The position numbers and the translations under genes were made by a program. This document shows positions 8,209 through 64,000 of a DNA stretch of 64,000 bases, in pieces. A model generated the notes under the pieces. The model worked only from the letters and a program-made list of their open reading frames with translations. It did no database searches and was not told where the DNA came from. Source of the DNA: Defluviimonas sp. SAOS-178_SWC (GTDB taxonomy: Bacteria; Pseudomonadota; Alphaproteobacteria; Rhodobacterales; Rhodobacteraceae); the NCBI RefSeq assembly GCF_039830135.1, contig NZ_CP156081.1:1226001-1290000 (forward strand), written 5' to 3'. Within the stretch, counting starts at the first letter, position 1, and each line of letters begins with the position of its first letter.

Positions 8209-8438
8209 GGTGTTATCCTGTCGGTACGGCCCCTTTCAAAGGGCCGGAAAAGGTCAGTGCGCCGAGTCCCATCGGGACGCGTCGCGGTATCAGCGGGGCG
8301 CGGTCCAACGCGGACCGCAGGACCCCTGGCGTGACATGGGAACCGGTGTCCGGGCCTCTGCCCCCGTCATCGGGGAACGGCTGCTCACGCGGCAGCGGGC
8401 CAGTCGGACCTGCGGCAGATGGGGCTTTTCGACCGGGA

Positions 8439-8444
8439 AGTCAA
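8439..8444 (-). promoter_or_regulatory. -35 box of the helicase promoter
   Basis: On the reverse strand TTGACT (5 of 6 matches to TTGACA) is followed after 17 bp by CATCTG, a poor -10 at 8416-8421. The last 11-bp repeat touches the -35 box directly. A weak -10 with activator-type repeats against the -35 suggests a positively controlled promoter. Confidence 0.45.
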
Positions 8445-8499
8445 GCGTATGTATTGCGTAGGGAGCGCGTAGGCTTGGCGTAGTTTTTCCGTAGCTACA
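8445..8499. repeat. Five 11-bp direct repeats upstream of the helicase
   Basis: GCGTA cores begin at 8445, 8456, 8467, 8478 and (as CCGTA) 8489, exactly 11 bp apart. The middle three read GCGTAG and the first reads GCGTAT; the other bases of each unit vary. On the reverse strand, where the helicase is transcribed, the core is TACGC. An 11-bp step is one helical turn and is the arrangement known for OmpR/PhoB-family response regulators. The regulator is not known. Confidence 0.7.
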
Positions 8500-8735
8500 G
8501 CGAGGGGCCGGCGCGCCGACCCTGACCGGCAACGCAAGCGCTGTCGCCGGGGCCGTCTATGTGGCCGGTGTGGGGCGGCCGGGCCTTGGCGCACGAAGGA
8601 TCGTGAAAGCGGGCGTCCAGTGGACGGCCGCGCGATCCGATTGCCCGGAGGCGCGAGCCAGAGGGCAAGGGGCTATCGGTTCGCGCCGGACATTCGGAAA
8701 TCGGGGCGCGCCTGACTGGGCGGGCGCGGTAACGC

Positions 8736-8831
8736 GCCTGCCGGGGGCAGGCAGGCGTGGGCCGATTTGTCGCGGGACAAATCGGGCGGGGAGTTGGCTT
8801 GCCCAGAGAGCGGTGCGCTGAAGCGCGCTCT
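8736..8831 (+). other. Three successive hairpins, possible non-coding RNA
   Basis: GCCTGCC-GGG-GGCAGGC (8736-8752), CCGATTTGTC-GCGG-GACAAATCGG (8762-8785) and a bulged stem at 8807-8831 followed by TTCTGCTTGC. No protein frame explains them. They could be a small RNA ending in a terminator, or decayed repeat DNA at the edge of the AT-rich island. Confidence 0.25.
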
Positions 8832-8930
8832 TCTGCTTGCTGTGATTTTGCTTGTGGCCGCGAGCCAAATTGACTCTTTAACAAATGTGGTTATTCAATA
8901 TTGTAAGAAGTAATGGGGAAGATGTGATCG

Positions 8931-46155: not shown

Positions 46156-46989
46156 TTACCGGGCGTGGAACACGAAAGAGCGCATCGAGATCGACGCAAG
46201 GTCGATGGTGTCGGTCATGTAGGTCAGGTCGTCGCCGGCATCGGACGCGCCCGCGATGGTGAGGGCCGGCATGTAGTGATCGACCGACGGATGCGCCATG
46301 CGGAGGAGGTTGCCCAACCCCTCGCGGTCCGCGAGCGCGGCGAAGTCGCGGTCTGTCAGCTTGTCGGCAAACAGCCGGTCGAACTCCAGCGCGAAATCAT
46401 GCGGTTTGCTGTTCTGGCCCCATTGGACCGCGCGAAGATTGTGCACGACGTTGCCCGAACCAAGGATGAGGACGCCGCGATCGCGGAGCGCCGAAAGCGC
46501 CCTGCCGATCTCAAGCTGGTAGTCGAGTCCGCGGGTCATGTCGATCGAGACCTGGAAGACCGGCACGTCGGCTCCGGGATAAAGAAACTTCAGGACGGTC
46601 CATGCCCCATGATCGAGACCCCAGGTATCGTCCTCCTCCGCATGGTGGCTGGCCAGCAGGGTGACCACCTCGCGCGCGAGGTCAGGATCGCCCGGGGCAG
46701 GGTAGCTCTCCTTGTAGAGCGCTTCGGGGAATCCGTAGAAGTCGTGGATCGTCCGCGGCATGGCCGAGACGTCGACGAGCGTGGTGCCCTTCGTCATCCA
46801 ATGGGCGGAGACGACGAGGATCGCGCTCGGACGCGGCAGGGTGCGGCCAAGCTCGGACCAGGAGCGGCTATATTCGGTGTCCTCGATGGCGTTCATCGGG
46901 CTGCCGTGGCCGAGGAAAACGAGCGGCATCCGTTCGCTGGGCGCGAGCCTGTCGCGGAGCGAGGCGAGGGCTTGGGGCGTACTCATCAT
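46156..46989 (-). CDS. ygiD: 4,5-DOPA extradiol dioxygenase family protein
   Basis: 277 residues of the LigB/class III extradiol family. FLGHGSPMNAIED near 23-35, ILVVSAHWMTKG near 56-67 and GLDHGAWTVLKFLYPGADVP near 121-140 supply the histidines of the metal site. Members open catechol rings or act on related aldehydes. The start is the first of two adjacent ATGs (46989, 46986), with AAGGAG upstream. Third gene of the quinone-stress operon. Confidence 0.9.
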   Translation of the reverse strand: MMSTPQALASLRDRLAPSERMPLVFLGHGSPMNAIEDTEYSRSWSELGRTLPRPSAILVVSAHWMTKGTTLVDVSAMPRTIHDFYGFPEALYKESYPAPGDPDLAREVVTLLASHHAEEDDTWGLDHGAWTVLKFLYPGADVPVFQVSIDMTRGLDYQLEIGRALSALRDRGVLILGSGNVVHNLRAVQWGQNSKPHDFALEFDRLFADKLTDRDFAALADREGLGNLLRMAHPSVDHYMPALTIAGASDAGDDLTYMTDTIDLASISMRSFVFHAR

Positions 46990-49315: not shown

Positions 49316-51193
49316 TTAGTGCTTCGGAATGCCGGCGGGATGTGCACTGCGGCGCTGGGCGGCGATACGGAACGGGGCGTTGGGCGCCCCGTAGCCTTGA
49401 TAGCCGCGGACGCGCTGAACGATCTCAAAGAAGAATCCGTTCTGCTGGGTGGCGGAGTAGAGCTGGAAGAACTGCCCCGTCTCGTCTTCGTCATAAAGAA
49501 TGTTCGCGGCCTTCATCCGGTCGATGAGCTTGGCGTCCGGGCCGAACCGGGCCTCGATGTCATCATAGTAGTTGCTTCCGATCCGCAGGGCCTGAAATCC
49601 TCGTTCCGACAGCGCCGCGGCCGTGGCGAATATGTCGGCGGTCGAAAGGGCAAGATGTTGCACGGATGAGCCAAAGCTTTCCTCGATGAAACGCCAAGCG
49701 AGGGTGCGCCGGGTTTCCGCGCCATTCAGTGTGACACGCAGGCCACCCGACGAAACGGCCTGCGACCTGACCAGGCCGTCCGGGTCCGCGACATCGACCA
49801 TCGGCGCTTTTTCCGCGTCGAAGATCGAGGTGTAGAACAACGCCCAGCTCAGCATCTCCTCGTATCGCATGGTCTGGGCGATATGGTCGACCGTCATCAA
49901 TCCCGCACCATGAGAACCGGGCTTGGTCTTGAAGTCGATGTCCCAGATGCGTTGCAGATCGGAGTTCTGGTCAAGAAAGCGGATCATCGACCCTCCCACA
50001 CCGCGAATGCCCGGGATGAACAACTCGCCTTCGCGTGTTGGCTGGTCATGTCGTTTTGCGATCAGCGCGGTTGCGCGCTCGAACGCGGCCTGAGCGTCGG
50101 GTACGACCACCCCGATTTCAGAAACCGTCGTCCCGTGGGTGACATATGAACTGTGTGCGAAGCCCTCAGAGTCCGTATTCACCAGGATATTCACGTTTCC
50201 CTGGCGCCAGAGCGTCACAGGCTTCGAAACATGACTTCCAGCCGCCTCGAACCCCATGCTCAGCAAAAGTGCCTCGAGAGCGGGTGAATCCGCGTCCGAG
50301 GTTGCGAACTCGACAAACTCCACGTTCGCCACCTTGGCCGGTGGCGGGAAGGCGGGAAGATCGACCTTGAGGGCTGGCTCTTCCCGTCGGACCCGATCCA
50401 TTTGGGCGATCAGGCTGCGGCGACCGTCGATCGCGACCAGCCTTGGCAGGCCCGACCGGAATTGATCGTTGAAGATCTCGAGGCTCAACGGGCCAGCATA
50501 ACCGGTTGCCGTGACTGCCCGCATGAACCCGGTGACATCGAGATCGCCTTCGCCCGGAAGGTTGCGGAAGTGACGCGACCAGTAGAGCAGGTCCATGTCG
50601 ATCGCCGGTGCATCGGCGAGTTGGACGAAGAATATGCGGTCGCCGGGAATGCTTCGGATCGTCGCCGGGTCGATCCGGCGGGCCAGGGTGTGAAAGCTGT
50701 CGAGGATAAGGCCGACATTTGGATGTTCGGCGCGCCGAACGACCTCCCAGGCGTCGCGGTGGTCGTTGACATGGCGTCCCCAGCAGAGTGCCTCGAAACC
50801 CACGCGAACGCCGTGAGATCTGGCCAGATCGCCGAGTTCGGCAAAATCCGCGGCCATCCGGTCGATACCCCCCATGGCGGCGGGGTGAACGGAGGAGCAA
50901 ACCAGTATGAGGTCCGTCCCCAGCTGGTTCATCAGGTCGAACTTGCGGGCCGCCCGCGCGAAGGCGCGGCTGCGATAGGGCTCTGGCAGTCCCTCGAAGT
51001 CGCGGAACGGCTGAAAGAGCGTGATCTCGAGGCCCGCGTCGCGGACCATGCGGCCGACATCCAGCGGAGCGTAATCGGATGAAATGAAATCCTGTTCGAA
51101 GATCTCGATACCGTCGAAACCGGCGGCGGCGATCGCCTCGAGCTTTTCTTCGAAGCTGCCGGAAATCGAGACGGTCGCGATCGAGGTTTTCAT
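49316..51193 (-). CDS. quiC: 3-Dehydroshikimate dehydratase fused to an HPPD-like domain (QuiC type)
   Basis: 625 residues in two parts. Residues 1-280 are a TIM-barrel of the AP endonuclease/xylose isomerase superfamily (AAGFDGIEIFEQDF near 23-36, VRVGFEALCWGRHVNDH near 127-143). Residues about 290-600 are a VOC 4-hydroxyphenylpyruvate dioxygenase-like part (VEFVEFATSD, MTVDHIAQTMRYEEML, SVQHLALSTADIF, FFFEIVQRVRGYQGYG). This is the layout of Pseudomonas QuiC1, which dehydrates 3-dehydroshikimate to protocatechuate. Its ATG overlaps the aroE-like stop. Last gene of the tctCBA-aroE-quiC operon. Confidence 0.9.
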   Translation of the reverse strand: MKTSIATVSISGSFEEKLEAIAAAGFDGIEIFEQDFISSDYAPLDVGRMVRDAGLEITLFQPFRDFEGLPEPYRSRAFARAARKFDLMNQLGTDLILVCSSVHPAAMGGIDRMAADFAELGDLARSHGVRVGFEALCWGRHVNDHRDAWEVVRRAEHPNVGLILDSFHTLARRIDPATIRSIPGDRIFFVQLADAPAIDMDLLYWSRHFRNLPGEGDLDVTGFMRAVTATGYAGPLSLEIFNDQFRSGLPRLVAIDGRRSLIAQMDRVRREEPALKVDLPAFPPPAKVANVEFVEFATSDADSPALEALLLSMGFEAAGSHVSKPVTLWRQGNVNILVNTDSEGFAHSSYVTHGTTVSEIGVVVPDAQAAFERATALIAKRHDQPTREGELFIPGIRGVGGSMIRFLDQNSDLQRIWDIDFKTKPGSHGAGLMTVDHIAQTMRYEEMLSWALFYTSIFDAEKAPMVDVADPDGLVRSQAVSSGGLRVTLNGAETRRTLAWRFIEESFGSSVQHLALSTADIFATAAALSERGFQALRIGSNYYDDIEARFGPDAKLIDRMKAANILYDEDETGQFFQLYSATQQNGFFFEIVQRVRGYQGYGAPNAPFRIAAQRRSAHPAGIPKH

Positions 51194-52047
51194 GCCGCTT
51201 CCTCCGGTTTCAGAAGGTCCGCCCGCAAGAGACGCAGATCCACATCTTTACCCGAAAAGAGACGCCAGGCGTGGACTCCCTGAAAGAAGAAAAGCTCCCA
51301 CCCCGAAACGATTGTCAGCCCCTTCTCCGCAGCATCGGTCAGGAACTGCGTGTCGGGCGGAGTGTACACGGCGTCAAAGGCCCACCCGGCCCCGGCAAGC
51401 GCCTCGGCAGCGACGGGCGTGCCGTCATATCCGACCATGCCGACCGGTGTGCAGTTGATGATGCCCGATGCGCCCTTGGCCGCGGCCTCGGCGGTGTCGT
51501 GCGTCGTGATGCTGAGAGCCGGGGCCGCCTTGCGCAGGTCGTCCGCCAGAGCTTCCGCCTTGGCGCGGTCGCGGTCGACTAGCCGGATTTCGGACGCACC
51601 CAGAGCGATCAGGCCGAACGCGACGGCGCGTCCGACGCCACCGGTGCCGATCATCAGGGTCGGCCCCGGCGGGACATTGCCACGAACACGCTGGTAGGCG
51701 GCGACAAATCCGGAATAGTCGGTGTTGTGACCCTTCGGGCCGTCAGTCCCGAAGATCACGGTGTTCACGGCACCTATGGCGCGAACGAGGGGATCGTCGA
51801 TGCTGACCTTGGCCGCGGCGCGCTCCTTATAGGGGTAGGTCACGTTGATTCCGCGATACCCGGCCGAGGCGCAGGTCGCGAAGACCGCGTCAAAATCCTG
51901 GCCCAGATCGCGCGGAATGAGGCTGTCATAGGTGACTGCCATTCCGTTCTGCGCCCCCGCGAGGCGGTGCAGGAGCGGCGAGCGCGAGCGCGCGATATTG
52001 TCCCCGATCAGGCCCAGCCGCAGGTCAGGCGTTCCGGCGCTGCTCAT
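51190..52047 (-). CDS. aroE: Shikimate/quinate dehydrogenase family protein (AroE/QuiB type)
   Basis: 285 residues. RLGLIGDNIARSRSPLLHRL near 10-29, GINVTYPYKERA near 71-82 and the Rossmann motif MIGTGGVGRAVAFGLIALGA near 131-150 are standard for AroE. Linked here to QuiC and a TTT transporter, it probably oxidises shikimate or quinate to the dehydro form for catabolism. It starts inside the tctA stop and ends inside the quiC start. A biosynthetic role cannot be excluded from sequence alone. Confidence 0.9.
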   Translation of the reverse strand: MSSAGTPDLRLGLIGDNIARSRSPLLHRLAGAQNGMAVTYDSLIPRDLGQDFDAVFATCASAGYRGINVTYPYKERAAAKVSIDDPLVRAIGAVNTVIFGTDGPKGHNTDYSGFVAAYQRVRGNVPPGPTLMIGTGGVGRAVAFGLIALGASEIRLVDRDRAKAEALADDLRKAAPALSITTHDTAEAAAKGASGIINCTPVGMVGYDGTPVAAEALAGAGWAFDAVYTPPDTQFLTDAAEKGLTIVSGWELFFFQGVHAWRLFSGKDVDLRLLRADLLKPEEAA

Positions 52048-53570
52048 TGTTCTGCCTCCTCGGCCGTGCGGTCGCGCAGCAGGCGCGCCTTGAGTTTGTG
52101 CCAGAGCGGCGTCTGGCTGAAGAATATGAAGAGGACCGTGAGAAACAGCACCAGCGAAAGAGGGCTGGTCAGGATGCCGTGGAAGAAACGTCCCAGATCC
52201 TCGCGCTCCGATATGATCGCGCGCCGCCAGTTGTCGTCAAGCAGGCGCGACAGGATCACGCCCAGAATGACGGGACCGAGCGGATATCCGTAGTGCCGCA
52301 TGAAGTAGCCGAACACCCCGAAGCCCAGCATCCAGTAGACGTCGGTCAGCGAGTTGTTCACCGCGTAGGCGCCGACGATCGACAGAAGCAGGATCAGCGG
52401 AATGAGGACCGAGCGCGGCATCTCGACGATCTTCGTGAAGATCCGGATGCCCGTCAGGCCGAAGAGCAGCATGAAGAAGTTCGCCGTGACCAGCGCGCCG
52501 ACGATGAACCAGAACATGTCCGGCTTGTCGATCATCAGCATCGGGCCGGGGTTCAGCCCGTGGATGAAGAGGGCGCCGATCATGATGGCCGTGACAGCAT
52601 CGCCGGGGATGCCGAGCGTCATCATCGGGATGAAGGCGCCGCCGACGGCTGCGTTGTTCGCCGTTTCGGGCGCCACAAGGCCCTCCATCGCCCCCTGGCC
52701 AAACGGGCGCGCCGGCTTTTTCGTCACGCGCTTGGCGTGATCGTAAGCCATCAGGGCCGCGATGTCGCCGCCGGTGCCGGGCAGGGCGCCGATGATCACC
52801 CCGATGCTCGAAGTTTGGAGCGCCAAAGGCAGGTATTTGCGGACGGTGCCGAACGAGGGAACGATTCTGGTGATCTTCTGGCGCACCGCCGGCAGGCCGA
52901 CGTGATGCAGTTGGAGCAGCGCCTCGGACACGCCGAACATGCCGATCATCACGGCGATGAAGGAAATCCCGCCCTGCATGACCGGAAGATCGAACGTGAA
53001 ACGCTCCGTGAAGGTCAGCGGGTCACGCCCGACCGCCCCGATGGCGATCCCGAGCGCACCGGCGAAGATGCCCTTCACGAGGCTGCCTTGCGACAGCGAG
53101 CCGACCAGCAGGATGCCCAGCACGGCGAGCAGCATGTAGTCGCGCGGCTGGAAGCTGAGCGCGAAATCCGACACGAAGGGCGCGGCGAGGGCCAGGACGA
53201 GGATGCCGATGAACCCGCCGAAGAACGACATGACGGTCGTCACTCCGATGGCCTGCCCGGCCTCGCCCCTGAGCGCCATCGGATAGCCGTCGAGTGCCGT
53301 CGCGATCGCGGACGGGGCGCCGGGAATATTGAGCAGGATCGCCGTGCGCGAGCCGCCATAGACCCCGCCCATGTAGATGCCGACCATCAGCGAGATTGCC
53401 GGGTAGACATCCCACGAGAAGGTGAAAGAGATCAGGATCGACACCGCCATGGTGACCGAGAGGCCCGGAATGGCGCCGATATAGACCCCGGCGAAGGTGC
53501 CGACACCGACCAGAAGCAGCAGTTCCGGCTGTGTGAAGATGGTGAAGAATGCGAGAAAGGCGTCCATCAT
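52044..53570 (-). CDS. tctA: Tripartite tricarboxylate transporter permease TctA
   Basis: 508 residues with about twelve membrane segments. YIGAIPGLSVTMAVSILI near 30-47 and the mid-protein IGALPGTGGDIAALMAYDHA are the conserved TctA motifs. It is the large membrane subunit of the binding-protein-dependent transporter. The ATG at 53568-53570 overlaps the tctB stop, and its stop overlaps aroE. Probable substrate: shikimate, quinate or dehydroshikimate, from context. Confidence 0.95.
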   Translation of the reverse strand: MMDAFLAFFTIFTQPELLLLVGVGTFAGVYIGAIPGLSVTMAVSILISFTFSWDVYPAISLMVGIYMGGVYGGSRTAILLNIPGAPSAIATALDGYPMALRGEAGQAIGVTTVMSFFGGFIGILVLALAAPFVSDFALSFQPRDYMLLAVLGILLVGSLSQGSLVKGIFAGALGIAIGAVGRDPLTFTERFTFDLPVMQGGISFIAVMIGMFGVSEALLQLHHVGLPAVRQKITRIVPSFGTVRKYLPLALQTSSIGVIIGALPGTGGDIAALMAYDHAKRVTKKPARPFGQGAMEGLVAPETANNAAVGGAFIPMMTLGIPGDAVTAIMIGALFIHGLNPGPMLMIDKPDMFWFIVGALVTANFFMLLFGLTGIRIFTKIVEMPRSVLIPLILLLSIVGAYAVNNSLTDVYWMLGFGVFGYFMRHYGYPLGPVILGVILSRLLDDNWRRAIISEREDLGRFFHGILTSPLSLVLFLTVLFIFFSQTPLWHKLKARLLRDRTAEEAEQ

Positions 53571-54139
53571 TTCGCTCCGCCAAAAAGGTCACGCAGGGCC
53601 TGCACCATCTCCGCCTCGGGCACGATTCCGGCCGGCATCAGGACCGTGAAGATGATCCGGAAGACGAACCAGACGAGGATCAGCGAGAAGAGGGCGACCG
53701 CCGTCGCGAAGAGCCAGCTTCGCGGATCGAGGAACTTGATCGCGAGGATCAGGAAGATGGCCGACGTCGGCAGGAAGCCGACCGGCTTGAGCAGCAATCC
53801 ATACGACACGATCAGGACGACAAAGACGATGACCCGCAGCGGCAGGATGTCCTTGGCGATGGTTTCCGTCGTGAGAAGCGGACGCCGCCAGGTGGTCAGG
53901 ACCGCAATCAGGGCAGTGATCAGCATGACCGCGGTTGTGCCCATCGGCACGACACCCGGACCGGACAAGGCCTCGAACCCCGAGATTCCATAAGCCTCTT
54001 TCAGAAGGTAGCCGCTGGCCAGCAGCAGAAAGATCGCGAAGGCCAGCTCTCCGGGGCGGCGGCTGTCTTCGTATCCGCCCGGCGTCGCGTCGGAGGATCC
54101 GTCGTGATGCTCGCCGTGCCCGTGAAATTCTTCGTCCAT
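53567..54139 (-). CDS. tctB: Tripartite tricarboxylate transporter small subunit TctB
   Basis: 190 residues with four membrane segments after a His/Asp-rich cytosolic N-terminus (EFHGHGEHHDGSSD). The later PRSWLFATAVALFSLILVWF is typical of TctB. It works with TctA. A hairpin attenuator lies between tctC and this gene. Confidence 0.9.
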   Translation of the reverse strand: MDEEFHGHGEHHDGSSDATPGGYEDSRRPGELAFAIFLLLASGYLLKEAYGISGFEALSGPGVVPMGTTAVMLITALIAVLTTWRRPLLTTETIAKDILPLRVIVFVVLIVSYGLLLKPVGFLPTSAIFLILAIKFLDPRSWLFATAVALFSLILVWFVFRIIFTVLMPAGIVPEAEMVQALRDLFGGAK

Positions 54140-54248: not shown

Positions 54249-55253
54249 TTATTTGGCCGGGCGCGCGATGCCGAAATCCTCGGGCGAGGCTTTCGTCAGG
54301 CCGGCATCCTGCATCAGCCAGGCGGTGGTTTCCTGCCATTTGGTCAGGAACGCGCGCGCCTCGTCGCCGCTGATGTTCATCAGGGTGAAGCCACGGTTCT
54401 TCATCAGGTCGAGGAAGTCGGGCTGTTCGGCGGCTTCCTTGTAGGCCGCAGTCAGCTTGGCGACCGCGTCATCGGGTGTGCCGTTCTTGACGAAGACGCC
54501 GAAGAAGGGACCCCAGGGCAGGTAGGTGTTGTAGCCGTCGTTGAACGACGCGACGGTCGGCACGTCGGGCAGCGCCTCGGCGGCGGTCAGGTCGAACACG
54601 GCAAGCGGCTTCATCGTGCCGGCCCGGATGCCTTCGATCGAGGCACCGAGCACGGCGGGCATGACGTCGATCGCGCCCCCCTGCAGCGCGGTCAGCGCCG
54701 GGCCATCCCCGTCATAGGGGACAAAGATCACGTCGAGGTCGCCTTCGACCGCCTTGATCATCGCGGTCACGACCGACGGCAGACCGCCCGGGCCGGTCGA
54801 GCCGAAGCGGACCTCGCCGGGGTGATCCTTGATATAGGCCATCAGGCCCGCATAGTCGTCGAAGGGCGCGTCCTTGCCGGCCACCAGGATCGGGGTGCCG
54901 CGCGCCAGGATGTTGATCGGGGTGAAGTCGCCGTAGTCCTTGTCGCCCAAGCCCATGACCTTGTAGAGCAATGGGTTCTCCGCGCCCATCAGCAGCGTGT
55001 AGCCATCGGCGTCACCTTCGGCGACCTGGTTCAGCGCGATGGCGCCGACGCCGCCGGTCACGTTCTGCAACACGACCGTTCCGTTCAGGACCTTTTCGGC
55101 ATGCGGTGTGACCGCGCGCATCACGGTGTCGGTCGAGCCGCCTGCGCCCCATTGGATGATGCCGGCAATTTCCTTCGTCGGGTAGTCCTGCGCGAGCGCG
55201 CCGGTGACCGTCATGGCGAGTGCCGAAACGGCGCCGAGAATGATGTGCTTCAT
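54249..55253 (-). CDS. tctC: TTT transporter substrate-binding protein (TctC/Bug family)
   Basis: 334 residues. A signal peptide (LGAVSALAMTVTGALA) is followed by the Bug fold: IIQWGAGGSTDTVMRAVTPH near 33-52 and FVPYDGDGPALTALQGGAID. It binds the solute in the periplasm. The ATG at 55251-55253 follows GGAGG. The promoter upstream carries a LysR operator. First gene of the tctCBA-aroE-quiC operon. Confidence 0.94.
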   Translation of the reverse strand: MKHIILGAVSALAMTVTGALAQDYPTKEIAGIIQWGAGGSTDTVMRAVTPHAEKVLNGTVVLQNVTGGVGAIALNQVAEGDADGYTLLMGAENPLLYKVMGLGDKDYGDFTPINILARGTPILVAGKDAPFDDYAGLMAYIKDHPGEVRFGSTGPGGLPSVVTAMIKAVEGDLDVIFVPYDGDGPALTALQGGAIDVMPAVLGASIEGIRAGTMKPLAVFDLTAAEALPDVPTVASFNDGYNTYLPWGPFFGVFVKNGTPDDAVAKLTAAYKEAAEQPDFLDLMKNRGFTLMNISGDEARAFLTKWQETTAWLMQDAGLTKASPEDFGIARPAK

Positions 55254-55308: not shown

Positions 55309-55372
55309 ATCATCGCTGAAACCAGATCATAACGTCAAATATCCATGAATGCCTTATATTAACCTGATGTTA
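55309..55372 (-). promoter_or_regulatory. tctC promoter with bipartite LysR operator
   Basis: On the reverse strand: TAACAT-CAG-GTTA (plus 55360-55372), 16 bp, GATATTTGACGTTA (55330-55343) containing the -35 TTGACG, and after 18 bp the -10 GATGAT (55309-55314). The first site centres near -64 to the expected start point, the usual position of a LysR recognition site. The same arrangement stands before the flavoprotein gene. Confidence 0.7.
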
Positions 55373-56293
55373 AGATCTCGACGTGCCGTAGGTGCCCTTG
55401 GCCGCCGCGGCGAGTTCCTTGCGGAATCTCTGTATCGCGAATTCCGCAAACCCAGACAGAACGCGCCCCTTCTTCCGCACGACGTAGATATTGACCGAGC
55501 TTTGTTCGGCCAGCGGAACGCGGACGAGACCCGGCATGTAGACTTCCGCAACCGAAAACGCGTCGATGAGGGCGACACCCAGCCCGTGACGCACCAGACT
55601 GACGACGGTCTGGGCGAAGCGGCCCCGGATGGCGTGCCGCAGCTCGACCCCTGCCGTGCGAAATGGCTGCGCGAGCTTGGCGCCGTAAGGGTCATCGGGA
55701 TCGACGCCGATGATTGGCTCGTCGGCGAGCTCGTGAACGGAAATGACGGTTTGATCCGAAAGTCGATGCCCCTCGGGCAGGATGACCAGCAACTGCCCCC
55801 GGGCCAGTTCTTCGTTCTCGATGCCGGGGTTGTCGACGCTCGAACTCATGATCACGAACTCGCCGCGCTCAAGCAACAGGTAGTCGACCGTCTCTTCGAT
55901 CTTCAGGATGTTGAGATCGATGAACAGGTCGGGGTAACGGAGGCGGATCGAGCGCATGGCGCGCGCCGCGATGAACTGTGCGACTGACGGAGCCGAGGCG
56001 AATGCCAGTTGAACGTTCTCGCCCTTTTCGAGCGATTCAATCGCGACCTGAAGGTTCTCGACGCCTTTATAGACGGCGGTGATCTGATCGAAGACGGGTC
56101 CGGCCTCGACCGAAGGAAGAAAGCGCCCGGCCCGCCGCTCGAACAGGCGGATGCCGAGCGACGCTTCGGTGTGTTTGATCAGGCGGCTGATGCCCGGCGC
56201 CGAGACGTTCAACTGATCCGCCGCGCCGCTGATCGTGCCGCGCATCATGACCGCACGGATAACCTCGACCTGTCTGAGCGTGATTTCTCGCAT
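55370..56293 (-). CDS. LysR-family regulator of the shikimate-type cluster
   Basis: 307 residues. The winged HTH is at about 1-60 (VEVIRAVMMRGTISGAADQL, LFERRAGRFLPSVEAG), then a LysR effector domain. I chose the ATG at 56291-56293 with GGGGA upstream, over a TTG 12 bp earlier. It lies between the tct operon (same strand) and the divergent flavoprotein operon. Both promoters carry the same bipartite operator; one copy is 29 bp before this gene, so it is probably autoregulated. Confidence 0.9.
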   Translation of the reverse strand: MREITLRQVEVIRAVMMRGTISGAADQLNVSAPGISRLIKHTEASLGIRLFERRAGRFLPSVEAGPVFDQITAVYKGVENLQVAIESLEKGENVQLAFASAPSVAQFIAARAMRSIRLRYPDLFIDLNILKIEETVDYLLLERGEFVIMSSSVDNPGIENEELARGQLLVILPEGHRLSDQTVISVHELADEPIIGVDPDDPYGAKLAQPFRTAGVELRHAIRGRFAQTVVSLVRHGLGVALIDAFSVAEVYMPGLVRVPLAEQSSVNIYVVRKKGRVLSGFAEFAIQRFRKELAAAAKGTYGTSRS

Positions 56294-56321
56294 CGAGTCC
56301 CCCAAGCGCCCGTCGGCAGAA

Positions 56322-56364
56322 TAACATGATGTTACTCAAGATGCCGAGTGGATATTTGACGTTA
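56322..56364 (+). promoter_or_regulatory. Flavoprotein operon promoter with bipartite LysR operator
   Basis: TAACATGATGTTA (56322-56334), 16 bp, GATATTTGACGTTA (56351-56364) with -35 TTGACG at 56356-56361. Sequence and spacing match the tctC promoter. No good -10 is seen 17 bp on, as expected for an activator-dependent promoter. Confidence 0.7.
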
Positions 56365-56421
56365 CCCTTAGGGCGGTGAACCCTAGGGGCAGCGGTCATT
56401 GGTTGGGCTAAGAGGCATTTC

Positions 56422-58089
56422 GTGGCAGGCAACTTCGACCTGATTGTCATCGGTTCCGGCGCGGCTGGCCTCGCGGCCGCCGTAACGGCGGCGCATCACG
56501 GTCTGAGTGTCGCCGTGCTGGAAAAGGCCGACGTGATCGGCGGGACGACCGCGTTGTCCGGCGGCTGGATCTGGGCACCGGGCAACCCCGTGGCCGTCCG
56601 GGCCGGGATCATCGAGGATGCCGACGCGCCGAGACGCTATCTCCAAGGTGTACTGGGCAATGCATTCGATGCCGCGCGCGTTGATGCGTTCCTTCGTGCC
56701 GCGCCCGAGATGGTTTCATTCTTCGAAACCCACACCGCCTTGCAGTTCGATGGGGGGGTGCATATCCCCGACACCTACGGTGACGTGCCGGGCGCTGGCC
56801 TGGGTGGACGATCGGTGATCGCGAAGCCCTATGACGCGCGCCGTTTGGGGGCGGCGCTGAAGCTCTTGCGCGAACCGCTCGCCGAGACCACGCTGAAGGG
56901 CCTGTCGATTCAGGCAGGGGCCGACTTGAAGGCCTTCATGACGGCGACCCGGTCCGTGCGCTCCTTCGTCTACGTCGCGGGGCGTGTGTCGCGCCATATT
57001 GCCGACCTCGCCGTGCATGGCCGCGCCATGCAGCTCAGGAACGGAAGCACACTGGTTGCCCGCCTTCTGCGCAGCGCTCTGGACCTTGGTGTCGACTTCT
57101 GCCCGTCGACCCCGGCACTCCGTCTGGTCACCGAGGGCGACCGCGTTAGTGGTGTCCTGACGAAAAACGGCGTTTTGAACGCGCGGAAAGGCGTGGTCCT
57201 GGCGGCTGGCGGGTTCCCCAACGACACCGAACGCCGCGCCGCGATGGTTCCACGCGACGACGAGCATCTGACCCTGGCCGTATCCACGGCGACAGGCGAT
57301 GGCGCGCGCCTGGCCGAAGCCCTGGGCGCGGCGTTCGCAGCCGATACCGCGACAACCGCCGCCTATTGCCCGGTGTCGAATGTCGCATGGCCATCGGGCG
57401 CCAAGGGGCGTTTCCCGCACATCATCGACCGTGGCAAGCCGGGCGTGATCGGGGTTCTGGAGAGCGGGAAAAGGTTCTGCAACGAGGGGCTCGGCTACCA
57501 CGACTATGTCCGCGCGCTCCTGGCCGCGGTGCCATCCGGGCAGAAGGCCCGGTCGTGGCTGGTTTGCGATCACCGGTTCATCCGGCGCTACGGCCTGGGC
57601 ATCGTGCGACCCGCGCCGCTGCCGCTGGGCGGCTGGATCCGGTCCGGATATCTCAAGCGGGGCGCCACCGTCGCGGAACTCGCGCAGGCAGCGGGTATCG
57701 ACGGTCCTGCCCTTGAGACGACCATCCGGGAATTCACCGTCAACGCGCGTCAAGGCCGCGATCCGGAATTCGGACGGGGAACGACCCCCTACATGCGGCT
57801 TCAGGGCGACCCGGCGCGCGGGCCCAATCCCTGCCTCGCGCCGATCGAACAAGGGCCGTTTTATGCCGTGGAGGTCGTTCCGGGCAGCTTCGGAACCTTT
57901 GCGGGTCTCGCCACCGACGGATGCGCGCGTGTCTTGCGGGCGGATGGGGCGCCGATAACGGGCCTTTATGCCGCCGGTTCGGACAGTGTCAGCGTGTTCG
58001 GCGGGCATTATCCGGCTGGCGGCATCAACCTCGGGCCCGCCCTGACCTTCGGCTTCGTCGCGGGCCGACATGCCGCAACGGGGGCTTGA
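56422..58089 (+). CDS. FAD-dependent dehydrogenase (flavocytochrome c/3-oxosteroid dehydrogenase-like)
   Basis: 555 residues. The FAD-binding motif FDLIVIGSGAAGLAAAVTAA is at about 5-24, GGTTALSGGWIWAPGN near 41-56, and the C-terminal FAD contact GGHYPAGGINLGPALTFGF near 526-544. The family covers fumarate reductase, 3-ketosteroid 1-dehydrogenase and TcuA-like proteins. In this operon it may desaturate or oxidise a cyclic hydroxyacid related to shikimate. The GTG at 56422 follows AAGAGG. The reaction is inferred from context only. Confidence 0.82.
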   Translation: MAGNFDLIVIGSGAAGLAAAVTAAHHGLSVAVLEKADVIGGTTALSGGWIWAPGNPVAVRAGIIEDADAPRRYLQGVLGNAFDAARVDAFLRAAPEMVSFFETHTALQFDGGVHIPDTYGDVPGAGLGGRSVIAKPYDARRLGAALKLLREPLAETTLKGLSIQAGADLKAFMTATRSVRSFVYVAGRVSRHIADLAVHGRAMQLRNGSTLVARLLRSALDLGVDFCPSTPALRLVTEGDRVSGVLTKNGVLNARKGVVLAAGGFPNDTERRAAMVPRDDEHLTLAVSTATGDGARLAEALGAAFAADTATTAAYCPVSNVAWPSGAKGRFPHIIDRGKPGVIGVLESGKRFCNEGLGYHDYVRALLAAVPSGQKARSWLVCDHRFIRRYGLGIVRPAPLPLGGWIRSGYLKRGATVAELAQAAGIDGPALETTIREFTVNARQGRDPEFGRGTTPYMRLQGDPARGPNPCLAPIEQGPFYAVEVVPGSFGTFAGLATDGCARVLRADGAPITGLYAAGSDSVSVFGGHYPAGGINLGPALTFGFVAGRHAATGA

Positions 58090-58091
58090 GC

Positions 58092-58973
58092 ATGACACAC
58101 GGGCTTTCCGTTGCACATCTGACGGCGATCACGCTGCCGCCAGCCGACCTGATCGAAGCCGCCGGCGCGGCCGGATTCGACGGTGTCGGACTGCGCCTCG
58201 TGCGTGTGACCGAGACCACCCCCGGCTATCCGCTCATGGAGGACCGGGCGGCACTTCGCGCGGCATTGGCCGCAATGCGCGCGACCGGGGTGGCCGTTCG
58301 CGATATCGAGTTCGTCAAGATCACGCCCGAAACCGACCTGGCCGCACTCGAGCCGCTGCTGGACGTCGGCGCGGAACTTGGGGCAGGGCAGCTGATCACC
58401 GCGCCCTACGACCCGGATCATGCCCGGCTCGCGGCCAAGCTGGGGGCTCTTTCCGAGCGCGCACGCTCGCGGGGGATCGACATCGTCCTGGAATTCTTCC
58501 CGTGGACCTCCGTTCCGGACCTGACAACGTGCTGGAACGTCGTTCAGGAGGCGGGCCCGGCCGTTGGAATCCTGGCGGACGCGCTGCATTTCGACCGGTC
58601 GAACTCGTCTTGCAGCCTGCTTGCCGCCTTGCCGTCCGGGAGATTGCCCTTCGCCCACCTTTGCGATGCGCCGCGGCTTTCAAGCTACGACACCGACGAA
58701 CTTTTGCGCACGGCCCGCGAGGCGCGCCTGCCCCCGGGCGAGGGCGAGATCGATCTTGGCAGTTTTCTCGACGGGCTTCACCCGGATACTGACCTTGCAC
58801 TGGAGGTTCCGACGGGGCGCGTGCTGGACCGTGAGGATGCAGTCGACGTATTGCGTTCGCTTTACCGGACGACTGCGGACTTCCTCTCCGACCATCGCCG
58901 CAAGGCGGTACGAACGTCGGAGAACGACGCAACGGAGGGCGGAGGTTTGAAATCCGGTCGATCAATGGTGTGA
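58092..58973 (+). CDS. TIM-barrel sugar isomerase/epimerase-like enzyme
   Basis: 293 residues, AP endonuclease family 2/xylose isomerase-like barrel: AAGAAGFDGVGLRLVRVTET near 25-44, VRDIEFVKITPETDLAALEP near 64-83, IDIVLEFFPWTS near 131-142. This superfamily includes AsbF-type dehydroshikimate dehydratases, so it may be a second enzyme of the same pathway. It starts 2 bp after the flavoprotein stop, so it is cotranscribed. Substrate unknown. Confidence 0.8.
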   Translation: MTHGLSVAHLTAITLPPADLIEAAGAAGFDGVGLRLVRVTETTPGYPLMEDRAALRAALAAMRATGVAVRDIEFVKITPETDLAALEPLLDVGAELGAGQLITAPYDPDHARLAAKLGALSERARSRGIDIVLEFFPWTSVPDLTTCWNVVQEAGPAVGILADALHFDRSNSSCSLLAALPSGRLPFAHLCDAPRLSSYDTDELLRTAREARLPPGEGEIDLGSFLDGLHPDTDLALEVPTGRVLDREDAVDVLRSLYRTTADFLSDHRRKAVRTSENDATEGGGLKSGRSMV

Positions 58974-59375
58974 TGAGCGCCCGCATCGGCACAGGGTAAC
59001 CTGCCCGAAGCGGCCCGGCCCGGCGCCGGCGTCGCGGGGGGGCGCAACGCTACGGGAACGCCCGGCGCGCTCTGCCGCTGGCGTGAGGGAGAGGCCGCGG
59101 ATCGCAATGACTGCCGTTCGCTCGCGCCTACAATCCGCAAGGGTCGACGCCTCTGCCTGCCGGACGATCTGCCGCGCGAGAACCATGCCGCCAGTTGCGG
59201 CACCTTGGCGGATCACGGTGAAGTGTGACTGATCCGTTGGCTTTCTGTGCTCTGCGAGGACTTTGGCTCCGATTGGGCTATTTCGTATAATGACATTTAT
59301 TCCGATATATATTGTGATTTTCGGAATTATCGCTATATTACAGTTGACAAGTGGCGACGCCACGGCAGGTACGAT
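58974..59375. other. Intergenic stretch before the second IclR gene
   Basis: 402 bp. The left part is GC-rich without a clear terminator. The right part is AT-rich and holds the inverted repeat ATTCCGA/TCGGAAT (59299-59327), a perfect TTGACA box (59344-59349) and a GTGGCG-A-CGCCAC dyad (59351-59363). It is the IclR promoter region. Confidence 0.45.
59299..59327. promoter_or_regulatory. Inverted repeat upstream of the second iclR gene
   Basis: ATTCCGA-N15-TCGGAAT, 49 bp before the gene and just before TTGACA (59344-59349). Probably an autoregulatory site. Confidence 0.45.
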
Positions 59376-60209
59376 ATGCGCAACACGACCGAGACTTCAA
59401 ACATGAACCAGAGCCAACCTCCCAGCTTTGTTGATCACGAGGGGCACGACGACACCAAGGGCATGTCCAGCACGTTGATCCGTGGGCTGGATGTGTTGTC
59501 GGCGTTCAGGGGAATACAGGAAACGCTGTCCAACAGCGAACTCGCCGATCGTCTGGGCTTGCCAAGACCAACGATCACCCGGCTATGCAATACGCTGGCA
59601 CATGCCGGCTATCTCAGCAAGGTCAAGGCCGGGAATTTCCGGCTGGGGTTGAGAGTGCTTGAACTGGCCTATCCGGTATTGTCCTCGATGACCTTTCGGC
59701 AGCGTGCGATTTCGGTGATGCGGGAATTCGCGGAATTTACCGGCGGGGCTGTGTCGCTGGCGACGATCCACGGGCCGAACCTGATATTCGTGCAGACCGT
59801 CCATCTGTCGGAGACGATGCGGCATAGCCCCGAGATCGGCTCGACCGGTCCGCTTTACAAATCCGCGATGGGGCGGGCGCTGTTGTCCATGCTTGATGCG
59901 GACTCGCTCCGCGCCAAAGAAGCGGAGATCGCGGCGGCGTATCCCGAAGAGTGGGAAGTATTCCGGCCGAGAGTGCAGGACGGAATTTCGCATTGCCGCG
60001 AACACGGCTTCGTGGTCGCGCTTGGTGACTGGCGGCCAGGATTCTACGGGGCCGCCGCCCCGATCAAGAAGCTGAAGAGCGGGCTCTACGTTGCCATCAA
60101 CTGTGGCGTGCCCGAACACAAGATCGCGGCCGAAGAGTTCACCCGCGTCATGGGCAGCAAGGTCGCCGCCTCGGCCAAGATCCTTCGTGGGACCTTCGCC
60201 GATCTCTGA
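59376..60209 (+). CDS. IclR-family regulator
   Basis: 277 residues. The winged HTH is near 30-90 (LIRGLDVLSAFRGIQETLSN, LADRLGLPRPTITRLCNTLA), then the effector domain (GAVSLATIHGPNLIFVQTVH, GPLYKSAMGRALLSM). ATG 59376 or 59403 are both possible; if TTGACA at 59344 is the -35, the later start fits better. It converges on the AEC transporter operon and may control the CoA-transferase/TctA operon. Confidence 0.88.
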   Translation: MRNTTETSNMNQSQPPSFVDHEGHDDTKGMSSTLIRGLDVLSAFRGIQETLSNSELADRLGLPRPTITRLCNTLAHAGYLSKVKAGNFRLGLRVLELAYPVLSSMTFRQRAISVMREFAEFTGGAVSLATIHGPNLIFVQTVHLSETMRHSPEIGSTGPLYKSAMGRALLSMLDADSLRAKEAEIAAAYPEEWEVFRPRVQDGISHCREHGFVVALGDWRPGFYGAAAPIKKLKSGLYVAINCGVPEHKIAAEEFTRVMGSKVAASAKILRGTFADL

Positions 60210-61310: not shown

Positions 61311-62516
61311 TCATTCAGACATTCCGGCCTGCGCCTCGGGGTTCAGACCTGGCAGAGCGGGATCGGAATATGCGCCAAGAACCTCTTCGTTGTCGCGCCC
61401 AAGCCTTCCGGCGCTACCGCGCACCGCGCAGGGCGATCGACTGAAGCGCGGCACGACGCCTTGCATTCTTACCTCGCCGAAGGTGTCGTCGGGAACCGAT
61501 ACTATGGCCTTGCGGGCCTGGTACTGCACATCTTCGAAGATCATGTCGATGGAGTAGATTGGCGCCAAAGTGCCCCCCTCACGTCCGAAAACGGCGACGA
61601 TATCGGCCAGATCGTGCTCGGCAAACCACTGGCGGAACACCGCATCAATATCCCGCGAGTTCTCGACCCGCAGCTTGTTCGTCGCATAGCGCGGCTCATC
61701 GAGAAGATCCGTCCGCCCGATGGATCGGAGATTGGCGGCAAAGGTGTTGTTCGTGCTGCCCGAGAGCGAGACATACTTGCCGTCGAGGGTCGGATAGACA
61801 TCCGAAGGCGCGGAATACTGGTTCCAGTTGCCATTTCGGGTGAACACCTGACCGAGCTGATCGTAAGCGATGGTCTGGAAATCGAGAAGCCGGAATACCG
61901 CCTCGGTCAGTGACAGGTCGACAACCTGCCCGCGCCGCGCCGGATCGCTTCGTACCGAATGCAGGGCCGTCATGATTGATAGCGCCCCGAACAGTCCACC
62001 GATGGCGTCCCCCATCGGGTATGAGGGGTGGATCGGCGGGCCATCCGCCTCGCCAGTCAGGTGGGCCAGACCGGACATCGCTTCGAAAAGCCTGGCGAAA
62101 CCCGGGCTCTTCGCACGGGGGCCGTCCTGACCGAAACCTGTCACGCGCAGAATGACCAGCGACGGGTTTATGGCGTGCAGAACATCGGGGCCCAAGCCCC
62201 AGCGTTCGAGCGTGCCGGGTCGGAAATTCTCCACCACGACATCGAAATCGCGCACCATCCGCCGGAAGACCTCGGCACCTTCTTCGGTTCGAAGATCCAG
62301 CTCTATGAAGCGCTTGCCGCGGTTGGTCACCTTCCACCACAGCGACTCCCCGTTCTTGAAGGGGGGGAAGTTGCGCATCCCGTCGCCCTGACCGGGCATT
62401 TCCACCTTCACCACATCGGCTCCGTAATCCGCCATCAGCGTGGCCGCGAAGGGTGCGGCAATGATGGTCGAGATGTCGAGCACGCGAAGGTCGCTGAGTG
62501 GCCCGTTCGTCGTCAT
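61311..62516 (-). CDS. Class III (CaiB/BaiF) CoA-transferase
   Basis: 401 residues. LRVLDISTIIAAPFAATLMA near 10-29, LGADVVKVEMPG-like DYGADVVKVEMPG near 30-42, DLRTEEGAEVFRRMVRDFDV near 73-92 and YPMGDAIGGLFGALSIMTAL near 171-190 follow the family, with the catalytic Asp near position 170-175. It transfers CoA between carboxylic acids, activating the imported acid. Its ATG overlaps the TctA stop. The substrate is unknown. Confidence 0.92.
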   Translation of the reverse strand: MTTNGPLSDLRVLDISTIIAAPFAATLMADYGADVVKVEMPGQGDGMRNFPPFKNGESLWWKVTNRGKRFIELDLRTEEGAEVFRRMVRDFDVVVENFRPGTLERWGLGPDVLHAINPSLVILRVTGFGQDGPRAKSPGFARLFEAMSGLAHLTGEADGPPIHPSYPMGDAIGGLFGALSIMTALHSVRSDPARRGQVVDLSLTEAVFRLLDFQTIAYDQLGQVFTRNGNWNQYSAPSDVYPTLDGKYVSLSGSTNNTFAANLRSIGRTDLLDEPRYATNKLRVENSRDIDAVFRQWFAEHDLADIVAVFGREGGTLAPIYSIDMIFEDVQYQARKAIVSVPDDTFGEVRMQGVVPRFSRSPCAVRGSAGRLGRDNEEVLGAYSDPALPGLNPEAQAGMSE

Positions 62517-64000
62517 ATTGAATCTCCCTTCCGGCGTGCCGCACGTCTGTCCAGCCCCCAGCGCACGACCGGCCAGGCGAGGAACACCAATGTCAGTGCG
62601 AACAGCACCAGCGCGATCGGCGAGGTGAAAAAGGCCAGGAAACTGTCGTTGGTCAGGATCAGTCCCCGGCGCAGGCTGCTTTCGATCATCGGGCTGAGAA
62701 CAAAGCCGATCACCACCGGCGCCAGCGGGATCTCGAGCCAGCGGAAGGCAAATCCGATCAGCCCCGCGACAAACAGCACGACCAGATCGAACCCGCTGAG
62801 ATTGACCGAATAGGTTCCCACCACGATGAGCCCGATAACACAGGCCATCAGCACGGGTTCCGGGATGCGCAAGACGCGGCTGAACAGCGGTGCAAGGGAA
62901 ATGCCCATTACGAACATCACCACGTTGACCGCGAACAACGCCATGAAGAGGTAGATCACCAGGTCCGGCTGATTGACGAACAGCGACGGCCCCGGAACCA
63001 CGTTCTGGATCGTCATCGCGCCCAGCATTACCGCCGTCACCGGGTCCCCGGGCACGCCAAGGGCCAGGGTCGGCACCAGCGCGCCGGCGGTCACCGCATT
63101 GTTGGCCGCCTCTGAGGCGATGATGCCGTCGGGCGTGCCGGTGCCGAACTTGTCGCGTTCGGGTGAACTGCGCTTGGCCTCGGCATAGCTGACCAGAGAG
63201 GCCGCGGTGGCGCCCACGCCCGGCAGGCTTCCGATCCAGGTGCCGATAAGCGACGATTTCAGCAACACCTTCCAGCGCCTGGCAACCTCGGCCAGCGGCG
63301 GCACGGCGATGCCGACCTTGTGCTGGATCGGCGTCTCTTCTCCATGCGGCCCGGCGACGCGCCACATCACCTCGGAGAGGGCGAACAACCCGACCAGCAC
63401 CGGGATCAGGGCCAGCCCGGCCGACAGCTCGTAGATGCCAAAATCGTAGCGCGTGACACCCGATATGGGATCCTGCCCGATCAGTGCCAGGAAGAGCCCG
63501 GAGGCCGTGCCGAAGATCCCCTTGATCGCGCTTTCGCGGGCCACCGAAACGATGCAGGTCAGCGCGAAGATGCCAAGCGCGAAATACTCGATTGGTCCGA
63601 AACGCAGTCCGAACCGTGCCAGCATCGGCGCGGCAACCACCAGGATGACGCAGGCGATGATGCCGCCCACGGCCGAACTGAGGGTTGCCCAGCCGAGTGC
63701 CAGGCCCGGCTGGCCGCCGCGCGCCATCGGATAGCCGTCGAACAGCGTCGCCGCCGATTGGGGCGTGCCCGGCGTGTTCAGAAGGATCGCCGGGATCGAC
63801 CCGCCGTAGACCGATCCGCAATAGGTGCCCAGAAGCAGCGCGATGCTGGCCGTCTGGTCCAGAACGAACGTGAATGGGAGGATCACTGTGATGCCCAGCA
63901 CCGAGCCAAGCCCGGGAATGGCACCGATCAGAATGCCGTAGAGCGTGCCGAGAGCGATCGCCAGAATGGCGTCGAACGAGGCCAGCATCCCCAGCGCGTC
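62513..64000 (-). CDS. tctA: TctA-family permease, 5' end cut by the window
   Basis: At least 495 codons, ending at 62513. ILIGAIPGLGSVLGITVILP near 19-38 of the visible part and SSLIGTWIGSLPGVGATAAS further on are TctA motifs. There is a Met at 63986-63988, but the frame stays open to the window edge (DALG before it) and TctA proteins usually start some residues earlier, so the true start is probably outside. It forms an operon with the CoA-transferase and AEC genes. A tctB/tctC pair is presumably upstream. Confidence 0.92.
   Translation of the reverse strand, partial: DALGMLASFDAILAIALGTLYGILIGAIPGLGSVLGITVILPFTFVLDQTASIALLLGTYCGSVYGGSIPAILLNTPGTPQSAATLFDGYPMARGGQPGLALGWATLSSAVGGIIACVILVVAAPMLARFGLRFGPIEYFALGIFALTCIVSVARESAIKGIFGTASGLFLALIGQDPISGVTRYDFGIYELSAGLALIPVLVGLFALSEVMWRVAGPHGEETPIQHKVGIAVPPLAEVARRWKVLLKSSLIGTWIGSLPGVGATAASLVSYAEAKRSSPERDKFGTGTPDGIIASEAANNAVTAGALVPTLALGVPGDPVTAVMLGAMTIQNVVPGPSLFVNQPDLVIYLFMALFAVNVVMFVMGISLAPLFSRVLRIPEPVLMACVIGLIVVGTYSVNLSGFDLVVLFVAGLIGFAFRWLEIPLAPVVIGFVLSPMIESSLRRGLILTNDSFLAFFTSPIALVLFALTLVFLAWPVVRWGLDRRAARRKGDSI

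Follow-up and report, generated by a model that had tools for sequence, protein, structure and literature searches.

The window, i.e., the whole stretch of 64,000 nucleotides from Defluviimonas sp. SAOS-178_SWC that was analysed, harbors a lysR gene between two oppositely directed gene groups (Table 1). The deduced regulator revealed an N-terminal HTH_1 domain (PF00126, 49.4 bits) and a LysR_substrate domain (PF03466, 104.2 bits), both above the Pfam cut-off, and fell short of the NCBIfam model for PcaQ (TIGR02424, 49.8 bits vs. a cut-off of 303.8). On one side, genes for a tripartite tricarboxylate-type importer are followed by an aroE-type gene, whose product has 2nlo (shikimate dehydrogenase) and 3jyo (quinate/shikimate dehydrogenase) as nearest solved chains, and by quiC. 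The deduced QuiC revealed the two-domain layout over its full length, aligning with NF042435 over residues 1–615 (629.6 bits, under the curated cut-off of 1200) and with 5hmq, the QuiC1 dehydroshikimate dehydratase, over residues 1–617. On the other side lie the genes for a flavoprotein of the 3-ketosteroid dehydrogenase (KstD) type and a TIM-barrel enzyme. The barrel gene is followed by an IclR-type regulator gene, whose nearest model is that for PcaR/PcaU/PobR (107.5 bits vs. a cut-off of 284.75). Further on, a second TctA-type gene beside a frame which we take to be CaiB-type CoA-transferase-like suggests another acid-uptake cluster. Two PF00775 matches outside the cluster were identified in the genome as intradiol dioxygenases, as needed for protocatechuate cleavage, and a LigB-domain protein (94.5 bits), also in the window, was the only PF02900 match of the genome at E ≤ 0.001.

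Table 1. Features of the lysR locus, in window coordinates.
Feature	Position	Strand	Basis or remark
LigB-domain protein	about 46240..46875	-	PF02900
quiC, two-domain 3-dehydroshikimate dehydratase (TIM barrel plus HPPD-like)	49316..51193	-	NF042435; 5hmq
aroE-type shikimate/quinate dehydrogenase	51190..52047	-	domain models; nearest solved chains
tctA	52044..53570	-	PF01970
tctB	53567..54139	-	PF07331
tctC, solute-binding protein of tripartite tricarboxylate-type importer	54249..55253	-	PF03401
possible -10 GATGAT, 18 bp past -35, tctC side	55309..55314	-	weak, predicted
tctC-side operator, in operon direction TAACATCAGGTTA-N16-GATATTTGACGTTA	55372 down to 55330	-	window sequence
proposed activation half, tctC-side operator (GATATTTGACGTTA); holds -35 TTGACG at 55333-55338	55330..55343	-	
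proposed recognition half, tctC-side operator (T-N11-A box TAACATCAGGTTA)	55360..55372	-	window sequence, genome scan; kept in relatives
lysR, LysR-type regulator, proposed binder of both operators	55370..56293	-	Pfam; co-occurrence with motif
flavoprotein-side operator, in operon direction TAACATGATGTTA-N16-GATATTTGACGTTA	56322..56364	+	window sequence
proposed recognition half, flavoprotein-side operator (TAACATGATGTTA)	56322..56334	+	
proposed activation half, flavoprotein-side operator (GATATTTGACGTTA); holds -35 at 56356-56361	56351..56364	+	
imperfect palindrome CCCTTAGGG...CCCTAGGGG	56365..56389	+	between -35 and flavoprotein gene start
possible -10 AACCCT, N17 past -35, flavoprotein side	56379..56384	+	weak, predicted
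KstD-type flavoprotein (FAD_binding_2), predicted ring-ketone desaturase	56422..58089	+	Pfam, NCBIfam, structure matches
TIM-barrel enzyme resembling QuiC dehydratase domain	58092..58973	+	domain and structure matches
IclR-type regulator	59298..60209	+	PcaR/PcaU/PobR model
second TctA-type gene	within 61311..63988	-	beside CoA-transferase-like frame

Read in the direction of its operon, each promoter carries TAACATNNNGTTA-N16-GATATTTGACGTTA. The GTTA half-sites of the two operator parts are 30 bp apart. The lysR stop codon forms the first three bases of the tctC-side operator, and the recognition half on the flavoprotein side is at the same time 28 bp upstream of where lysR starts. An earlier note on this DNA had described TAACAT-N2-3-GTTA at both promoters, followed after exactly 16 bp by an identical 14-mer that contains the -35. 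The first motif was indeed found at both, but its gap is exactly N3 in each case rather than N2-3; the spacing of 16 bp held at both sites, the identical run even extends to 16 bases (TG plus the 14-mer), and TTGACG lies inside the second half of both. A T-N11-A box with a second site near the -35 is thus seen at both window promoters, at a position relative to the start site that is predicted.

The genome of the window (4,339,523 bases, i.e., 4.34 Mb, in two contigs) was searched for the two-part pattern with 16-bp spacing, as the earlier note had suggested. The 20-position composite was found at these two places only, even with up to three mismatches allowed, so that no third composite site indicating a wider regulon was detected at that threshold. 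The 14-mer alone occurs in exactly two copies, and the reversed controls of both searches gave none. Within the window, three places matched the 14-mer at up to three mismatches compared to a mean of 1.11 in shuffles, which is not rare by number. A 12-mer with one mismatch at C2:2162563, considered as a further site, was rejected, as it is not a composite at up to three mismatches.

For comparison, relatives were fetched by the LysR protein alone, and the best 80 of 123 loci encoding a relative were used, mostly from Rhodobacteraceae and including Roseibium, Pannonibacter, and one Rhizobium; these relatives do not represent independent samples, and there is overlap between the loci and the genome samples described below. 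Loss of the pattern in relatives with the cluster had been named beforehand as what would refute the idea; instead, 76 of the 80 best loci matched at 19–24 of 24 positions. Four (L067, L072, L074, and L083) revealed no convincing site in the fetched DNA, with best values of 14 or 15 of 24. When the half-sites were sought separately in the 80 loci and the window, 125 of 128 pairs showed one offset and three showed others, compared to no pairs in three shuffled sets. Among 81 sequences (the 80 loci plus the final 18 kb of the window), 136 sites were detected at 15 or more of 20 positions, 118 of which precede a pathway gene (62 tctC, 46 flavoprotein, five aroE-like, four quiC, and one barrel), and 18 were unassigned at first. 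Sites in L065 (6395), L073, and L094 (11453) lie before an MFS transporter gene, that in L070 (18656) before a tctC-like start, and those in L090, L091, and L094 (8933) precede an AroE-like frame (29–32% identity); two matches at 15 of 20, in L068 (8894) and L088 (16139), probably arose by chance. Over the 118 assigned sites, information amounted to 1.43 bits a position in the first half, 1.57 in the second, 0.27 in the spacer, and 0.10–0.11 in the flanks, values that lean upward because the pattern's fixed positions had served to select the sites. Positions left free by the pattern were conserved, too, namely T6 (0.89/0.74) and A8 (0.94/0.89 in the two promoter classes). Some Paracoccus sites end in GTAA, GGAA, CCAA, or GGCA instead of GTTA. 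In L068, L075, L078, and L093 (L180 being the same contig as L093), a full first part with a second part ending in CCAA or GGAA was observed about 7 kb from lysR; the one at 16405 (-) in L075 stands before an ABC-transporter permease gene (Pfam, L075 alone). These four sites stay without an assignment.

The relatives also gave hints on the position of the halves within the promoter. The nearest -10-like hexamer of the tctC-side promoter in the window lies at N18. In the alignment of the relatives, A59 carried 0.44 bits in the tctC class, which is weak, and 0.95 bits in the flavoprotein class, in which T63 carried 0.61 bits. Since A59 and T63 fall where a -10 at N17 past TTGACG would, the two halves would be located near -63 and -33. 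The value of about -64 given by the earlier note for the centre of the first site would thus become about -63, provided that A59 and T63 belong to such a -10, the start site itself being predicted. The imperfect palindrome behind the flavoprotein-side -35 had no visible counterpart at the tctC-side promoter.

Presence of the site was found to follow the pathway genes. At a threshold of 17 of 20, and omitting in each comparison two of the 80 best loci that were too short on the relevant side, a site upstream of lysR was present in all 43 loci where a divergent flavoprotein gene adjoins lysR and in 11 of 35 where none does; downstream of lysR, it was present in 63 of 63 loci with tctC, aroE, or quiC next and in none of the other 15. 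Nine of the 11 upstream sites without a flavoprotein have another gene there, i.e., barrel (L054), quiC (L065 and L070), a transporter (L073), or an AroE-like gene (L082, L088, L090, L091, and L094). In the other two, L029 (8297–8339 (-), 19 of 20) and L064 (8935–8977 (-), 18 of 20), the site points away from lysR, and no pathway gene was detected next to it; these operators are perhaps relics or serve lysR autoregulation.

Where clusters are split, quiC, tctCBA, aroE, the flavoprotein–barrel pair, or a ShiA-like transporter gene carry their own site. In L018, the flavoprotein–barrel pair is inverted and has its own, correctly oriented site, and in L117, quiC, tctCBA-aroE, and barrel each have one (19, 19, and 16 of 20). 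In L151, from the genome of L062 and unlinked from lysR, two sites stand back to back between flavoprotein–barrel and tctCBA-aroE. Away from lysR, own sites were also identified for tctCBA (L152), quiC (L154, L150, and L148), and a second aroE (L116, 65%). In L148, L149, L153, and L155, a site precedes a transporter frame of like beginning, which looks broken near its start in L153. The transporters of L149, L153, L155, and L073 scored 345–376 bits with TIGR00883 (cut-off 443) and 241–274 bits with the shikimate transporter model (cut-off 538). In L085 and L086, the flavoprotein and barrel genes are divergent from lysR at a distance of about 0.9 kb and lack a site; translation revealed an IclR-like frame directly before the flavoprotein gene (8120–8908 (-) and 8118–8903 (-), respectively), and this pair is perhaps now under another regulator. 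L067, L072, and L074 harbor more distant flavoproteins (52–54%) with no site nearby. The genomes of L067 and L072 do have sites, which lie on lysR-free stretches and precede quiC and a transporter frame; the genome of L074 had none at up to two mismatches. The fetched DNA of L083 ends at lysR.

Motif and LysR were further compared across two genome sets, which overlap each other and the loci; the LysR search scored the best 15 or best 7 first-look candidates per genome. Among 149 genomes of the family, 12 encode the LysR (E ≤ 1e-60), and the motif was present at up to two mismatches in 10 of these compared to 0 of the 137 others; the two LysR-positive genomes without the motif have LysR relatives of 44–49%. 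Among 292 genomes of the order, 19 are LysR-positive (E ≤ 1e-90), with the motif at up to one mismatch in 15 vs. 0 of 273, and the remaining four have copies at 16 or 18 of 20, including G365 (LysR 76%) with a 16-of-20 copy before tctC. From the genomes of named loci, tried for 38 of the 80, 34 matched at up to two mismatches; G171, G175, G176, and G185 had no site at this threshold. Reversed-pattern controls gave no matches in the own genome, both genome samples, or the 38 locus genomes. No LysR match was obtained in two genomes of the same genus as the window (G010 and G275), and therefore the cluster seems to be accessory. The claim that the regulon can be defined from sequence was borne out, since site presence follows the pathway genes and the genomes with the motif were all LysR-positive.

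Calculation showed that the sites exist, that they are unique in the genome, conserved, and of fixed geometry, and that they move along with the pathway genes. On this basis, the two 43-bp sites are very probably the operators of the LysR encoded between them, forming a classical recognition/activation pair that would drive both gene halves; binding by this LysR, activation, the inducer, and the substrates are proposed on the grounds of sequence. One dimer of a LysR tetramer would sit on the T-N11-A palindrome (centre about -63) and the other on the half-palindrome over the -35 (about -33). Upon inducer binding, RNA polymerase would use the near-consensus TTGACG -35 together with a weak -10. 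The tctCBA-aroE-quiC genes would thus be switched on for uptake of a shikimate- or quinate-like acid, its oxidation to dehydroshikimate, and dehydration to protocatechuate, and the flavoprotein and TIM-barrel genes would be switched on in the opposite direction. The flavoprotein-side site, just upstream of lysR, may in addition give autorepression. Because the operator stands before both cluster halves and usually moves with them, it appears to mark genes working together.

It is unlikely that the second part is only a strong sigma-70 -35 and that the LysR site is the palindrome alone, with a promoter placed at a constant spacing from it. TTGACG does come close to the -35 consensus, and A59 (in both classes) and T63 (in the flavoprotein class) fall where a -10 at N17 is expected; however, the -10 is hardly kept, and the GTTA half-site recurs 30 bp past that of the palindrome. 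Conservation also goes beyond the hexamer: TTA behind it (positions 41–43) is kept at 0.97–1.00 (tctC class) and 0.98–1.00 (flavoprotein class), and the preceding A33 reaches 0.97 and 0.91, respectively; all of these values are for pattern-held positions and lean upward.

The sites might also belong to another regulator, either the nearby IclR type or an unlinked LysR paralogue, with the adjacent LysR controlling something else. The IclR gene behind barrel is of the PcaR/PcaU kind, and IclR-like frames precede the flavoprotein gene in L085 and L086, yet there the site is missing. The IclR of the window matched just three of the 80 best loci, at 26%, and genomes lacking a match to this LysR gave no copy of the motif (0 of 137 and 0 of 273). 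T-N11-A is moreover a known LysR-type box, as described in PMC8407307, and we regard control by another regulator as very improbable. Likewise, there is little reason to expect that the flavoprotein-side site serves lysR autoregulation only, which would place flavoprotein and barrel outside the shikimate regulon. It does lie a short way upstream of lysR and persists in L029 and L064, where the flavoprotein gene is absent. At 17 or more of 20, however, a site is missing from 24 of the 35 loci in which no divergent flavoprotein gene adjoins lysR (L021, L068, and L077 have 15–16), and at nine of the 11 flavoprotein-less sites the place is taken by a gene for a barrel, QuiC, an AroE-like protein, or a transporter. 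The moved flavoprotein–barrel pairs of L018 and L151 took a correctly oriented site with them, and the barrel gene of L117 has a weaker one.

As to what flavoprotein and barrel may do under the proposed LysR operator, the former resembles, by its sequence, ring-ketone desaturases such as 3-ketosteroid delta1-dehydrogenase and cyclohexanone dehydrogenase (7p18, 4c3x, and 8am3; 34% identity to 7p18), though its substrate probably differs from theirs. Among 25 NCBIfam matches listed, only the general PRK06134 passed its cut-off (771.7 vs. 747 bits), and the ChcC2 model NF053677 stayed below (499.2 vs. 900). In KstD1, the relevant residues are numbered, as we assume, Tyr119, Tyr318, Tyr487, and Gly491. 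The last three align to Y359, Y530, and G534 of the flavoprotein, kept in 46 of 46 orthologues, and Tyr119 aligns to T118, with Y119 one place off. The barrel resembles the dehydratase domain of QuiC as well as Lmo2234 (2g0w) of Listeria monocytogenes. The earlier note had tied both enzymes to dehydroshikimate metabolism. That they belong to the regulon here has good support, whereas action on dehydroshikimate itself can only be inferred, because the tctC-side site occurs in several relatives that lack both enzymes, and L085 and L086 have them without a site.

As a tentative and rather doubtful reading, flavoprotein and barrel might form an unknown oxidative entry into dehydroshikimate, starting from an imported saturated cyclohexane-polyol acid of the dihydroshikimate type, a product of quinate-fermenting bacteria. 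The AroE-type enzyme would oxidise a ring alcohol, the flavoprotein would desaturate the 3-keto ring as KstD does, handing the resulting dehydroshikimate to QuiC, and the barrel would epimerise or dehydrate a side intermediate. If so, the regulon would serve quinate and shikimate together with their reduced fermentation products. A route to gallate, in which a ChcC2-like flavoprotein would aromatise dehydroshikimate, was also considered; it is not favoured, because the sole LigB-domain match lies in the window and both PF00775 matches are intradiol. In any case, an exact and searchable operator was obtained from sequence, which defines a regulon across dozens of Rhodobacteraceae as well as a few alphaproteobacteria outside this family; its copies move with the genes when clusters split. 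Through it, two uncharacterised enzymes, the flavoprotein of KstD type and the barrel resembling QuiC, are linked to the breakdown of shikimate/quinate, and their function thereby becomes directly testable.

No paper on this operator or cluster in Rhodobacteraceae was found among the open-access titles and beginnings of abstracts listed. Regarding related regulators, QuiR of Listeria monocytogenes (5TED) is, according to PMC11602165, a shikimate-induced LysR-type activator of protocatechuate-forming genes. A LysR-type regulator over shikimate-to-protocatechuate genes is thus common to both systems, while tctCBA and the KstD-type flavoprotein gene set the cluster described here apart; 5TED was not among the 26 PDB matches of our LysR at E ≤ 1e-3. 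ShiR of Corynebacterium glutamicum, shikimate-responsive and LysR-type as well, represents the same kind of regulator and effector class, a likeness drawn from its description in PMC7042172 and PMC9332510. With classical LysR regulators, as portrayed in PMC8407307 and PMC11602165, our system shares the box, the two-part layout, its position relative to the inferred promoter (recognition T-N11-A near -65, activation near -35), and a regulator gene beside and divergent from its target. In contrast, the promoters on both sides of lysR here each carry a copy of the operator, whose activation half is no less conserved than its recognition half and whose spacing is nearly constant. Altogether, the operator adds a new and well-preserved case to a familiar type of switch, and its many copies offer a natural data set for the two-site geometry of LysR.
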